Source of the DNA: Massilibacillus massiliensis
GTDB lineage: Bacteria; Bacillota; Negativicutes; FLKF01
Direction of reading: 5' to 3'
Length of the DNA stretch: 64,000 bases
NCBI RefSeq assembly: GCF_900086705.1
Contig: NZ_LT575483.1
Span: 2,429,442-2,493,441, forward strand
Part shown: one piece after another, positions 42,403 through 57,022 of the stretch
How the letters are laid out: the number at the start of each line of letters is the position of its first letter
Position numbering within the stretch: position 1 is the stretch's first letter
The notes under the pieces: model-generated
Told to the model about the DNA's origin: nothing
Databases searched by the model: none
Seen by the model: the letters and a program-made list of their open reading frames with translations, nothing else
Translations under genes and position numbers: made by a program

Positions 42403-42696
42403 ATGGAAAATATTTATCGTGTAGCAATACACTATAATGAAGACAATGGTTATATTGAATATGCAAAGGAAGAAAAAGCTGCAAAAGTTGTGTTAGAAAC
42501 GGTGGATAAAAAAGAACAAGTAGAATCTTATTTAGCACAAACGCATGAAATAAATGTACCTAATGAAACAATTCTTGATTTTTCAAAGCGAATGGTAAAT
42601 CCTTTAAATAGCCTGGAAGAATTCAAATTATCTTTGACAAGGTTATGGGGGATTACTGGTGTTTATGTTGATTGGAGCAGACCAGTAAACGTATAA
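42403..42696 (+). CDS. Hypothetical 97-aa protein
   Basis: A soluble protein that I do not recognise. It starts MENIYRVAIHYNEDNGYIEYAKEEKAAKVVLET and ends GVYVDWSRPVNV, alternating strands and helices. The ATG at 42403 follows AAAGGAG. It stands alone with a strong GGGGTGGCGCAT hairpin (part of repeat copy C) as terminator. Codon use looks native. Confidence 0.65.
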   Translation: MENIYRVAIHYNEDNGYIEYAKEEKAAKVVLETVDKKEQVESYLAQTHEINVPNETILDFSKRMVNPLNSLEEFKLSLTRLWGITGVYVDWSRPVNV

Positions 42697-43979: not shown

Positions 43980-45563
43980 ATGAGGGCAATACAAAAATGG
44001 CTGTTTATCGTTAGTATTTTTTGTCTGTGTTTTTCACTTGTTGGATGCGGGGAAAATAAAACGCAGCAGGTAAAAAAAGAGTTGGTATATGCCAGCACCA
44101 AAGATATTCGTGATATTAATCCGCATTTATATGGCGGTGAAATGGCTGCACAAGCAATGGTTTTTGAACCATTGGTATATGACAGTAAAGAAGGAATCAA
44201 ACCTGGACTTGCGGAAAAATGGGAAATGTCTGAGGATGGTCTTGTGTATACTTTTCATATACGACAGGGTATAAAATTTACGGATGGTGAGCCGCTGAAT
44301 GCAGAAGCGGTAAAGAAAAATTTTGACGCTGTTGTTGCAAATAAAGCACGCCATGCATGGCTGGATATGATCAATCAAATCGATCACGGTGAAGTGGTGG
44401 ATGAATATACCTATAAATTGGTATTAAAAAAGCCGTATTATCCAACTTTGCAAGAACTTGCCTTGTCTCGTCCATTTAGAATTATTTCACCGAAATGCTT
44501 TAAAGATGGAGAAACAAAAAATGGCGTTACCGGTTATGCGGGAACTGGTCCATACATATTAACTGAGCATAAAGAAAAGCAATACGCGATTTTCACGGCA
44601 AATCAATCCTATTGGGGAGATAAGCCAAAAATTGAAACGATCAAATGGCAGGTAATGCCGGATCATCAAACGATTTTATTGGCCCTGCAAAAAGGTGAAA
44701 TTGATTTACTGTTTGGTGCAGATGGAGATATGATTGATTTGGATTCTTTTGCGGTATTGAAAAAAGAAGGTAAATATGAAGCCGTCATGAGTGAACCGAT
44801 TGCTTCACGGGCAATTTTAATCAATGCCCATCAGCCAATTACCTCTGATCGTAATGTCAGAGAAGCTTTTCAATATATCGTAAATAAAGAGGCAATCGCC
44901 AATGGTGTATTGAATGGAACTGAAACAGTTGCAGATACCTTGCTATCGCCGACAGTTCCTTATTGCGATGTGCCGCTTGAAAAAAGAGTTTATGATTTAG
45001 AAAAAGCAAAACAAATTTTGGATCGCATTGGCTGGAAAGTAGGAGAAGATGGATACCGCTATAAAGACGGTAAAAAAATGACAGTTACAATCTATTATAA
45101 TTCCAATAATGCGCAGGAACGTACAATCAGTGAATATATGCAAAGTGACATGAAAGTAGCTGGGGTAGATCTTCAAATTGTGGGGGAAGAAAAGCAGGCA
45201 TTTCTAGACAGACAAAAATCAGGCGATTTTGATTTGCAATATTCTCTATCATGGGGTACGCCTTATGATCCGCAATCTTATCTCTCCTCATGGCGGATAC
45301 CTGCGCACGGTGATTATCAAGCACAAATTGGGATGGAAAAGAAGGCGTGGTTGGATGATACGATCGGTAAGATTTTAGTTGAGTTTGATAAAGAAAAACG
45401 GCAGATGATGTATCAAGAGGTTTTGACGTACATTCATAATGAATGTGTATATTTACCGCTCACGTATTCAAGGACGAAGGCTGTTTATTCACCTGCCTTA
45501 AAGGGTGTTGGTTTTAATCCTTCTCAATATGAAATCCCCTTTGAAAAAATGTATTTTGAATAA
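43980..45563 (+). CDS. nikA: Nickel ABC transporter substrate-binding lipoprotein NikA, copy 1
   Basis: A 527-residue binding protein of the peptide/nickel family (SBP_bac_5). The signal ends in lipobox LVGC. Similarity to E. coli NikA is clear along the whole length: NPHLYGGEMAAQAMVFEPLV, HAWLDMINQI, PYYPTLQELALSRPFR, GTGPYIL, and WGTPYDPQSYLSS followed by the ligand histidine in PAHGDYQAQ. It starts at ATG 43980 after AGGAGG. It ends in its own terminator, so it is transcribed separately from nikBCDE. Confidence 0.9.
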   Translation: MRAIQKWLFIVSIFCLCFSLVGCGENKTQQVKKELVYASTKDIRDINPHLYGGEMAAQAMVFEPLVYDSKEGIKPGLAEKWEMSEDGLVYTFHIRQGIKFTDGEPLNAEAVKKNFDAVVANKARHAWLDMINQIDHGEVVDEYTYKLVLKKPYYPTLQELALSRPFRIISPKCFKDGETKNGVTGYAGTGPYILTEHKEKQYAIFTANQSYWGDKPKIETIKWQVMPDHQTILLALQKGEIDLLFGADGDMIDLDSFAVLKKEGKYEAVMSEPIASRAILINAHQPITSDRNVREAFQYIVNKEAIANGVLNGTETVADTLLSPTVPYCDVPLEKRVYDLEKAKQILDRIGWKVGEDGYRYKDGKKMTVTIYYNSNNAQERTISEYMQSDMKVAGVDLQIVGEEKQAFLDRQKSGDFDLQYSLSWGTPYDPQSYLSSWRIPAHGDYQAQIGMEKKAWLDDTIGKILVEFDKEKRQMMYQEVLTYIHNECVYLPLTYSRTKAVYSPALKGVGFNPSQYEIPFEKMYFE

Positions 45564-45657
45564 GGTAAGAGTAAAGTTTACGGTAAATGAAGGGAGATAA
45601 TGAGGTCGTTTTCTTTGGCCGATGGGGAATTATTGAACTTCCGTCTCTGCTTATGGG

Positions 45658-45702
45658 AAATTACCCTTTATATGCTTTTAGAGCATATAAAGGGTAATTT
45701 TT
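45658..45702 (+). terminator. Terminator after nikA copy 1
   Basis: A perfect 19-bp stem AAATTACCCTTTATATGCT / AGCATATAAAGGGTAATTT followed by T. Confidence 0.88.
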
Positions 45703-46148
45703 AATCAAAAGAAATTCTATAGAAATACTTTAAATTAGTCAAACGCTATCTATGTGATACGAGCTGTATCGACTATCTGAGTATGGAATGACAAATAGTT
45801 GTTTTTGCTTAGAATAAGTGATGGTAATTTATAATTACAACTTTTTATATCGTCGTTTATTCTTCTATAAAAATAATTTTATTGAATTTAAGAAAATTAT
45901 AATGTATTATACTAAATAGTAATGTTACTATTTGAGACTCTTTATCATTTAGGTGATAGGAAGGTAATACATTGTAGACGGATTTAAATAGTTGGCCTAC
46001 AACAATCGAGCTTGCTTTTCTGGTCAGGTTTCGTGTTCTTTAAGTTCACCTTTTAGGGGCGAAGACTGGCAATATAGTGAAAAGAAATGCTTTACATCAG
46101 CAGAGGTTGTAGTACTTGTTAAAAATTATAAATTTCAGGAGGTTCGTA
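45703..46148. other. Leader region of nikA copy 2 with operator-like palindrome
   Basis: About 445 bases without a convincing gene. It holds a TATAAT at 45898, a perfect palindrome AAATAGTAA-TG-TTACTATTT at 45914-45933, and a TTGTAG / CTACAA hairpin near 45973-46006. A short open frame crosses the nikA start region but has no ribosome site. The palindrome would suit a metal-responsive or other repressor. Confidence 0.55.
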
Positions 46149-47732
46149 ATGGGGAAATTGCAGAGATGGCTGTTTATACTGAGTATTTTCTGTTTGAGTG
46201 TTTCACTCGTTGGCTGTGGTGAAAATAAAACGCAGCAGATAAAGAAAGAGCTGGTATATGCCAGCACCAAAGATATTCGTGATATTAACCCTCATCTATA
46301 TGGTGGTGAGATTGCTGCACAAGCGATGGTATTTGAGCCACTGGTCTATGATAGCAAAGATGGAATCAAACCGGGACTTGCAGAAACATGGGAAATATCT
46401 GAGGATGGTCTTGTCTATACTTTCCATATACGGCAAGGTGTAAAATTCACAGATGGTGAATCGTTAAATGCAGAGGCGGTAAAGAAAAATTTTGATGTTG
46501 TTATTGCAAACAAAGCACGTCATGCCTGGCTGGATATGATCAATCAAATCGATCACGGTGAAGTAGTGGATGAATATACCTATAAACTGGTATTAAAAAA
46601 TCCTTATTATCCGACTTTGCAGGAGCTGGCTTTATCTCGTCCGTTTAGAATTATTTCACCGAAATGCTTTAAAGAGGGAGAAACAAAAAATGGCGTTACC
46701 GGTTATGCGGGCACTGGTCCATACATATTAACCGAGCATAAAGAAAAGCAATACGCGATTTTCACGGCAAATCAATCCTATTGGGGAGAAAAACCAAAAA
46801 TTGAAACGATCAAATGGCGGGTAATGCCGGATCACCAAACGATTTTATTGGCACTGAAAAAAGGTGAAATTGATTTACTGTTTGGTGCAGATGGAGATAT
46901 GATTGATCTGGATTCTTTTGCCGCGTTGAAAAAAGAAGGTAAATATGAAGCCGCTATGAGTGAACCGATTGCTTCACGGGCAATTTTAATCAATGCCCAT
47001 CAGCCGATTACTTCTGACCGCAATGTTAGAGAAGCTTTTCAATATATCGTGAATAAAGAGGCAATTGCCGATGGTATATTAAATGGAACTGAAACAGTTG
47101 CAAATACGTTGTTATCCTCAACAGTTCCTTATTGCAACGTGCCACTTGAAAAAAGAGTGTATGATTTAGAAAAAGCAAAACGAATTTTGGATCGCATTGG
47201 CTGGAAAGTAGGAGAAGATGGATACCGCTATAAAGACGGTAAAAAAATGACAGTTACGATTTATTACAATTCCAATAATGCGCAAGAACAGACGATTAGT
47301 GAATATCTGCAAAGTGATATGAAAGCAGCTGGGGTAGATCTTCAAATTGTGGGGGAAGAAAAGCAGGCGTTTTTAGATAGACAGAAAGCAGGCGATTTTG
47401 ATCTGCAATATTCGTTATCATGGGGGGCACCATATGATCCGCAGTCCTATCTTTCTTCATGGCGGATTCCTGCGCATGGTGATTATCAGGCGCAGAAAGG
47501 CATAGAAAAGAAGCCATGGCTGGATGATAAGATCGGTAAGGTCCTAGCCGAGGGGGATAAAGAAAAACGGCAGATGATGTATCAAGAGATTTTGACCTAT
47601 ATTCATGAGGAATGTGTGTATTTACCGCTTACGTATTCGAGAACGAAAGCTGTTTATTCACCTGGCTTAAAAGGTGTAGGATTTAATCTTTCGCAATATG
47701 AAATTCCATTTGAAAAAATGTATTTTGAATAA
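46149..47732 (+). CDS. nikA: Nickel ABC transporter substrate-binding lipoprotein NikA, copy 2
   Basis: Same length (527 residues) and, by eye, more than 90 percent identical to the copy ending at 45563. Differences are scattered, such as ISEDG for MSEDG and KGIEKKPWL for IGMEKKAWL; the signal peptide differs more. Lipobox SLVGC and the ligand histidine in PAHGDYQAQ are kept. The ATG at 46149 has CAGGAGG upstream. nikB follows after 38 bases with no terminator, so this copy is the one in the nikABCDE operon. Confidence 0.9.
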   Translation: MGKLQRWLFILSIFCLSVSLVGCGENKTQQIKKELVYASTKDIRDINPHLYGGEIAAQAMVFEPLVYDSKDGIKPGLAETWEISEDGLVYTFHIRQGVKFTDGESLNAEAVKKNFDVVIANKARHAWLDMINQIDHGEVVDEYTYKLVLKNPYYPTLQELALSRPFRIISPKCFKEGETKNGVTGYAGTGPYILTEHKEKQYAIFTANQSYWGEKPKIETIKWRVMPDHQTILLALKKGEIDLLFGADGDMIDLDSFAALKKEGKYEAAMSEPIASRAILINAHQPITSDRNVREAFQYIVNKEAIADGILNGTETVANTLLSSTVPYCNVPLEKRVYDLEKAKRILDRIGWKVGEDGYRYKDGKKMTVTIYYNSNNAQEQTISEYLQSDMKAAGVDLQIVGEEKQAFLDRQKAGDFDLQYSLSWGAPYDPQSYLSSWRIPAHGDYQAQKGIEKKPWLDDKIGKVLAEGDKEKRQMMYQEILTYIHEECVYLPLTYSRTKAVYSPGLKGVGFNLSQYEIPFEKMYFE

Positions 47733-50360: not shown

Positions 50361-51125
50361 ATGTTGGAAGTAGAAAATATATATAAATCTTATAAAAAAC
50401 AGAAAAATTTTTTTTGTTCCTCTCATAAGCAAAGCGTACTGCAAGATGTTTCTTTTGCTGTAAACAGTGGCGAGTGTGTGGGATTAGTTGGTGAAAGTAG
50501 CAGTGGCAAGAGTACGTTGAGTCGATTGATTTTGAATCTTGAGCGACCAGACAGCGGACGAATTTTAATGGAAGGTCAACCAATACAGAAATGGCTAAGG
50601 ACGCATCGTGGTGCAGTCAGTGTTGTTTTTCAAGACTATACTACATCGGTAAATCCTAGATTTACAGTGGAGCAAATCGTTGCTGAACCGCTAAAGATAT
50701 TGCATAAACCATTATCAAAAGATTGTATTGTAAACTTATTAGAAACTGTGAATATATCCTCTGGCTTTATGAAACGGTATCCGCATGAATTGAGTGGAGG
50801 TCAGTTGCAACGTGTTTGTCTAGCTAGGGCAATTTCGACTACGCCACGTTTTATTGTACTGGATGAGGCACTTAGTTCTTTAGATGTATCCATTCAGGCA
50901 CAAATGTTGCAACTGCTAAAAAAATTAAAACAGCAGATGGGAATAACTTATTTGTTTATTGCCCATGATTTACAAACGCTGACCAATTTATGTGATAAGG
51001 TGCTTTTTCTTTATCAAGGAAAAATTGTCGAAGAAGCCTATAGCCAAAACCTATATAAAGTAAATCATATTTATGCAAAACGATTATTGGAGTCTGTGCT
51101 TCCTTTTGGTGAACGGTGGAAATGA
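50361..51125 (+). CDS. nikE: Nickel ABC transporter ATPase NikE
   Basis: A 254-residue ABC ATPase. Walker A is GESSSGKST near 47; the usual GSGKS glycine is serine, as in some NikE proteins. Signature LSGGQLQRVCLARA and Walker B FIVLDEALSSLD are present. It starts 8 bases after nikD and closes the operon. No clear terminator follows; the DnaA-box region begins within 40 bases. Confidence 0.9.
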   Translation: MLEVENIYKSYKKQKNFFCSSHKQSVLQDVSFAVNSGECVGLVGESSSGKSTLSRLILNLERPDSGRILMEGQPIQKWLRTHRGAVSVVFQDYTTSVNPRFTVEQIVAEPLKILHKPLSKDCIVNLLETVNISSGFMKRYPHELSGGQLQRVCLARAISTTPRFIVLDEALSSLDVSIQAQMLQLLKKLKQQMGITYLFIAHDLQTLTNLCDKVLFLYQGKIVEEAYSQNLYKVNHIYAKRLLESVLPFGERWK

Positions 51126-51158: not shown

Positions 51159-51521
51159 TGTGGATATTTTAGATGAATAAAAAATATGTTCACATAAAGA
51201 TCGACTTATCCACAATTTTATACACAAAACCCATGTTCCTGTGGATAATTTTATAAAAATGCTGATAAATCGTTATGAAAAAAACTGTAAAGTGTGTATA
51301 AGTTAATAAAATATGAGAATAAATAAAATTGAAGTTTACAGTTTTGTGAATTTCAATAATTTGTAAGAGTGTTTTAAGAAAGATAAAGTAACATAAAATT
51401 TGACTTATCCACAATTTTATTAACAAATTTAATAAATGTGTTGATAAGTCTACAGAAAAAAGGTATTTTTGTTGGTAACTAAGAAAAATATGTGAATAAG
51501 TTATAACTTTCTTGTGGATAA
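51159..51521. other. DnaA-box cluster in AT-rich DNA
   Basis: Seven exact matches to TTATNCACA: plus strand at 51206, 51218 and 51405; minus strand at 51240, 51293, 51491 and 51513. Two near matches are at 51159 and 51439. The 19-bp GACTTATCCACAATTTTAT is repeated at 51203 and 51402. The region is gene-free and very AT-rich. There is no dnaA, dnaN, rpmH or gidA nearby, so it is more likely a DnaA-titrating or regulatory cluster, like the DnaA-box clusters of B. subtilis or datA of E. coli, than the main origin. An origin cannot be excluded. Confidence 0.8.
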
Positions 51522-51563: not shown

Positions 51564-51595
51564 TTGACAAGTTATAAAAAGAATGTTAGTATAAT
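51564..51595 (+). promoter_or_regulatory. Probable tRNA-Arg promoter
   Basis: Exact TTGACA at 51564 and exact TATAAT at 51590, but 20 bases apart, wider than the usual 16-18. It sits at the edge of the DnaA-box cluster. Confidence 0.5.
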
Positions 51596-51626: not shown

Positions 51627-51703
51627 GACTCTGTAGCTCAGCTGGATAGAGTGTTTGACTACGAATCAAAAGGTCGCAGGTTCGACTCCTGCCAGGGTCA
51701 CCA
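51627..51703 (+). tRNA. tRNA-Arg (anticodon ACG)
   Basis: Acceptor GACTCTG pairs with CAGGGTC (one G-T pair), followed by A and an encoded CCA. The anticodon loop CTACGAA gives ACG, read as ICG after deamination. Confidence 0.97.

Positions 51704-52346: not shown

Positions 52347-57022
<4,676 letters not shown>

Follow-up and report, generated by a model that had tools for sequence, protein, structure and literature searches.

A conserved cluster of DnaA boxes upstream of tRNA-Arg in Massilibacillus massiliensis and its relatives: a candidate replication control locus of the Negativicutes

A 64,000-nucleotide stretch of the Massilibacillus massiliensis genome (C6:2429442-2493441; hereafter, the window) contains a dense cluster of DnaA boxes just upstream of a tRNA-Arg gene, and the core layout, location, and orientation of this cluster recur across the class Negativicutes. 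The same precise layout in many families points to a hitherto undescribed control site for replication. On balance, our analysis somewhat favors the cluster being a conserved, oriC-proximal, non-coding DnaA control locus, one that probably restrains re-initiation.

Box Content and Density of the Cluster

A pattern scan identified seven exact TTATNCACA sites between positions 51206 and 51521 of the window (51206, 51218, and 51405 on the plus strand; 51240, 51293, 51491, and 51513 on the minus strand). The first-pass annotation had correctly described these seven boxes, a 19-bp exact duplication (GACTTATCCACAATTTTAT; plus strand, 51203..51221 and 51402-51420), and an intergenic placement, the cluster being flanked by the end of an ATP-binding cassette (ABC)-transporter ATPase gene at 51125 and by the tRNA-Arg at 51627-51703. 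Its count of two near matches was too low, as four one-mismatch sites are present within the cluster (51159, 51314, and 51439 on the minus strand, and 51417 on the plus strand).

The box density is high relative to both the window and the genome. The 64-kb window holds 11 exact sites (3.9 expected), a number reached in none of 100 shuffles. Across the whole genome (4.0 Mb) there are 265 TTATNCACA sites, or ~0.02 expected per 316 bp, and the Poisson probability of at least seven sites in 316 bp is ~3e-16 per position. The same pattern read backwards occurs 121 times genome-wide. Clusters of at least five sites, chained at 250 bp, were surveyed along C6:1-2.95 Mb (74% of the genome); the tRNA-Arg cluster is the densest there, and the sole other cluster of this size is oriC, with six sites. 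The first-pass annotation had named a similar density in other gaps and a lack of the cluster in close relatives as outcomes that would count against its reading; neither proved to be the case, the former within the surveyed part and with the exception of oriC. A chance cluster is ruled out by the box density together with the conservation described below.

The first three boxes form a 43-bp core (51206..51248, plus strand), consisting of box 1 (TTATCCACA, 51206-51214), a 3-bp gap, box 2 in the same orientation (TTATACACA, 51218-51226), a 13-bp spacer (AAACCCATGTTCC, with a single change in G001 and G016), and an inverted box 3 (TGTGGATAA, 51240-51248). A fourth, inverted box follows on the minus strand (51293..51301), at +87 from box 1. 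The 3/13 geometry is repeated in a second core copy (51405..51447, plus strand), comprised of TTATCCACA (51405-51413), TTATTAACA (51417-51425), and TGTTGATAA (51439-51447), of which the second and third boxes are degenerate; the 19-bp duplication is the common start of both copies. Two further inverted boxes lie at 51491-51499 and 51513-51521 (region 51491..51521, minus strand), and a near-match box (ATATCCACA, 51159..51167, minus strand) is an outlier on the other side. Located 3' of the boxes is a putative tRNA-Arg promoter (51564..51595, plus strand; TTGACA, then TAGTAT/TATAAT), assigned by reading the sequence. The cluster is 77% AT, similar to oriC, as is its number of boxes.

Core Geometry Across the Class

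Conservation was examined in a sample of 150 genomes of the class (presumably all Negativicutes), for which families (f) and genomes (G) are given by codes. With the region and its tRNA as the query against 40 relatives, the boxes were matched in several families in addition to the tRNA. Among tRNA-Arg(ACG) loci fetched by similarity alone, 11 have at least three boxes upstream (the window's own included), and the convergent gaps in these loci are 13, 25, or 26 bp only, the 25-bp value being measured between the first box and the inverted one. The shared 43-bp core (box, 3 bp, box, 13 bp, inverted box), with at most three mismatches in 24 positions, is present in 71 of the 150 genomes, while a reversed control pattern is present in none. 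An exact 21-base search across the genome collection gave no match, and a degenerate core search returned 76 loci.

Because the fixed-core search presupposes the 3/13 geometry, a gaps-free search was also made, with both gaps ranging from 0 to 30 bp (961 combinations). The 3/13 combination was the commonest, at 18 places belonging to 12 families; next came 3/2 (16 places), 3/3 (8 places), and smaller groups, in a tally that omits ~20 listed matches with long or overlapping gaps. The 3/2 form in G028 sits 87 bp upstream of dnaA. Head-to-head gaps of 2, 13, and 24 bp are seen within the class, and these steps of 11 bp, approximately one helical turn, are what would be expected if paired DnaA molecules met on one face of the helix, a correspondence that is suggestive only.

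The anatomy of the element was derived from an alignment of 58 core loci. The base left open by the search pattern is C in box 1 and G in the inverted box at all 58. The position of the fourth, inverted box varies: it is +87 for the window, Massilibacillus, and Propionispira, and between +108 and +113 for most relatives. A second core copy occurs in the window as well as in G001 and G016. Diverged clusters without the exact geometry follow a gene of ~100 amino acids (described below) in f4, f15, and f25. About 22 contigs of uncultured Clostridia carry the 3/13 geometry at a different locus, 3' of genes for a polC-type DNA polymerase and a DUF1294 protein.

Genes Neighboring the Core

The core is usually located downstream of the ~100-amino-acid gene and upstream of tRNA-Arg. 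Both neighbors are found at 27 of the 58 core loci, the gene alone at 18, the tRNA alone at 12, and neither at one (near a contig end). Orientation is uniform: the gene is directed toward the element in 45/45 cases and the tRNA away from it in 39/39, and in most relatives the core starts within ~100 bp of the gene's stop codon. The element is thus not merely hitch-hiking on a neighbor, since the gene or the tRNA can each be missing, and the boxes themselves appear to be what is conserved. The tRNA-Arg (ACG) of the window (51627..51703, plus strand) is a neighbor retained in many families.

Among the good-quality genomes of the class, the ~100-amino-acid gene was found in 109 of 124. In the window it occupies 42403..42696 on the plus strand (its product containing ..VYVDWSRPVNV), ~8.5 kb from the element, and is separated from it by a nik-like transporter cluster. 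This transporter cluster begins with two near-identical solute-binding-protein genes in tandem (43980-47732). The product of the ~100-amino-acid gene represents a class-wide protein family ending in VDWSRP, usually encoded just upstream of the DnaA element. Searches of four relatives gave no Pfam or NCBIfam family above the cut-off, and the predicted fold (predicted local distance difference test, pLDDT, 88) had no PDB match at E ≤ 0.001 and none with Z ≥ 5, which does not imply a new fold.

Position Relative to the Replication Origin

The dnaA gene (C6:2071104-2072513) maps 409 kb from the cluster, or 10.2% of the contig, in agreement with the initial description of the cluster as lying away from any replication gene. 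On the long contigs available for 13 genomes, the distance between the element and dnaA is 2.0-11.4% of the contig. Under uniform and independent positions, such proximity to the origin would have p ~3e-5 (one genome per family), a figure that overstates the evidence because the locus is inherited.

The GC skew is positive on both sides of the cluster, with no change of sign there, and a dip at 52-58 kb of the window coincides with minus-strand, repetitive collagen-like genes. Two of these (window 52347-57010, minus strand) are large genes with GPTGPTG repeats, resembling those for exosporium or spore-surface proteins. No replication gene adjoins the cluster, and the dnaA locus carries a DnaA-box cluster of its own. 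A scan for the DnaA-trio found none in the element and none at this genome's dnaA locus either, and is hence uninformative.

Smaller groups of boxes occur elsewhere on the contig. Three exact boxes lie within 83 bp at C6:2131790-2131872, ~60 kb from dnaA. A further cluster (C6:1731811-1731921), ~340 kb from dnaA on the side opposite to the tRNA-Arg cluster, has four exact boxes in a near-core geometry and is flanked by genes for a lysA-like decarboxylase and a degS-like sensor kinase. Core-like matches akin to the latter are also found in G001 and G016, with the same two neighboring genes in G016.

Proposed Function and Alternatives

We infer that DnaA binds the locus, that this binding influences initiation, and that the influence is negative. 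DnaA would form a single defined complex on the tandem pair of boxes, with its 3-bp gap, and on the inverted box that follows after 13 bp, accompanied by the fourth box 50-80 bp away and, in this genome, by the degenerate second core copy. Located 2-11% of the chromosome from oriC, the locus would be duplicated soon after every initiation, and this early duplication would provide more capacity to hold DnaA or to alter its nucleotide state, such that re-initiation is restrained, either by titration or by inactivation of DnaA. Neither YabA nor, above the family cut-off, Hda was found in this genome, other regulators not having been searched for. A broader proposal, that elements of the DnaA-reactivating sequence (DARS) or datA type, with a 3/13 geometry of their own, serve as class-wide switches of the DnaA nucleotide state in these Firmicutes, in a genome where YabA and Hda, one protein regulator for each model organism, were not found, is tentative and less likely than not.

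Several points weigh against a restraining control locus. No cluster occurs 3' of the ~100-amino-acid gene in most of the sampled f11 (Selenomonadaceae-like) genomes, nor in the f22 genome, and it is therefore dispensable in some lineages. Common descent, and not selection on position, may in part explain the proximity to oriC, and the sign of the effect (restraint versus stimulation) is not readable from sequence. Furthermore, PMC5295017 itself judges the Bacillus subtilis clusters to be without a major role in the control of initiation.

The sign would be reversed if the element were DARS-like, with ADP-DnaA bound head-to-head on the core losing its ADP to become ATP-DnaA, and initiation thereby promoted. 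The topology of the Escherichia coli DARS (box III, 3 bp, box II, inverted box I) is matched here, DARS1 and the DARS2-like site upstream of mutH both have this same tandem gap of 3 bp, and DARS requires its head-to-head pair (PMC10380432, PMC5742627). However, the head-to-head gap is 13 bp here versus 5 bp in E. coli. The topology with a 2-bp gap also occurs close upstream of dnaA (G028, above), and because of this, topology alone does not identify a DARS; the tandem-plus-inverted arrangement was accordingly dropped as a DARS-specific feature. Overall, we consider promotion of initiation by a DARS-like site unlikely.

Alternatively, the locus might serve in the folding or segregation of the chromosome, or be the relic of an ancestral origin, in either case with DnaA binding but no role in timing. 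Its position near the origin and its loss in some lineages, which suggests that it is non-essential, would be consistent with this, but a relic does not easily account for the fixed gap lengths and invariant box bases seen over many families, and such a role seems improbable. Regulation of tRNA-Arg transcription by DnaA through these boxes is also doubtful, to a degree that makes it hardly probable. While many families have the cluster, in a fixed orientation, directly 5' of the promoter for this tRNA, at 18 of the 58 core loci the gene is present but the 900 bp downstream contain no tRNA-Arg (these include nearly all f23 genomes, as well as f27, f31, f12, and f29, with some stretches ending at a contig end or at the fetched length). 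In addition, the downstream tRNA is sometimes CCT and not ACG, the distance from core to tRNA ranges from 159 to 842 bp, and other copies of tRNA-Arg(ACG) are without boxes. An explanation by a mobile element, or by the origin of a plasmid, sited at the tRNA is ruled out, as place and orientation do not change from family to family; in a distant plasmid search, the matches listed fell on the query's tRNA end. Finally, a secondary or cryptic replication origin, raised in the first-pass annotation and in line with the oriC-like box number and AT content, is very improbable given the unflipped GC skew, the lack of adjoining replication genes, and the dnaA locus with its own cluster 409 kb away.

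The restraining control locus favored here bears on a wider question. According to a 2026 review, B. subtilis is without datA and DARS, and the existence of regulators of the DnaA ATP/ADP state is left open (PMC13220808). A class-wide element with fixed spacing would offer a 43-bp target for this question, amenable to footprinting, exchange or hydrolysis assays, and deletion, and would show that clade-specific, non-coding replication control sites are discoverable from box geometry alone. No report of such clusters in Negativicutes, or of DARS in Firmicutes, was found in a literature search that covered few subscription papers.

Comparison With Known Systems

Like a bacterial oriC of the bipartite, Firmicute type, the element consists of dense DnaA boxes in AT-rich intergenic DNA, but it differs in having neither an adjacent dnaA/dnaN nor a switch in GC skew. 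With E. coli DARS1 and DARS2 it shares a three-box core, in which tandem boxes 3 bp apart are followed by a head-to-head inverted box. The spacing is 3 then 5 bp in E. coli (in DARS1, between boxes III and II and between box II and the inverted box I, respectively; a comparable array upstream of mutH was taken as DARS2) versus 3 then 13 bp here. At 17.5 and 64 min, the E. coli sites are also farther from oriC, whereas the element here flanks tRNA-Arg. Box I of DARS is inverted relative to the other two boxes, and DARS1 and DARS2 have equal spacing (PMC5742627).

The likeness to E. coli datA lies in a group of DnaA boxes next to a tRNA locus, at a distance from oriC of ~10% of the chromosome (94.7 min versus 84.6 min). 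Function of datA requires an IHF site between its essential boxes. The core geometry described here was not found at E. coli datA. Whereas datA lies 3' of glyVXY and tRNA transcription reads through it (PMC10950094), the element here is upstream of tRNA-Arg in all 39 tRNA-bearing loci and would not be read through in this way.

The DnaA-box clusters (DBCs) of B. subtilis are likewise groups of boxes outside oriC and proximal to it in a Firmicute, and deletion of all six off-oriC clusters is described as leading to early initiation (Okumura et al., 2012, as cited in PMC5295017 and PMC13220808). The sequence attributes of DBCs (multiple consensus boxes, an intergenic location outside oriC), as well as a position proximal to oriC, are found in the tRNA-Arg cluster. 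The parallel with initiation-tuning clusters such as those of B. subtilis and datA, drawn at the outset in the first-pass annotation, thus appears strengthened by the class-wide locus, the fixed geometry, and the proximity to oriC.
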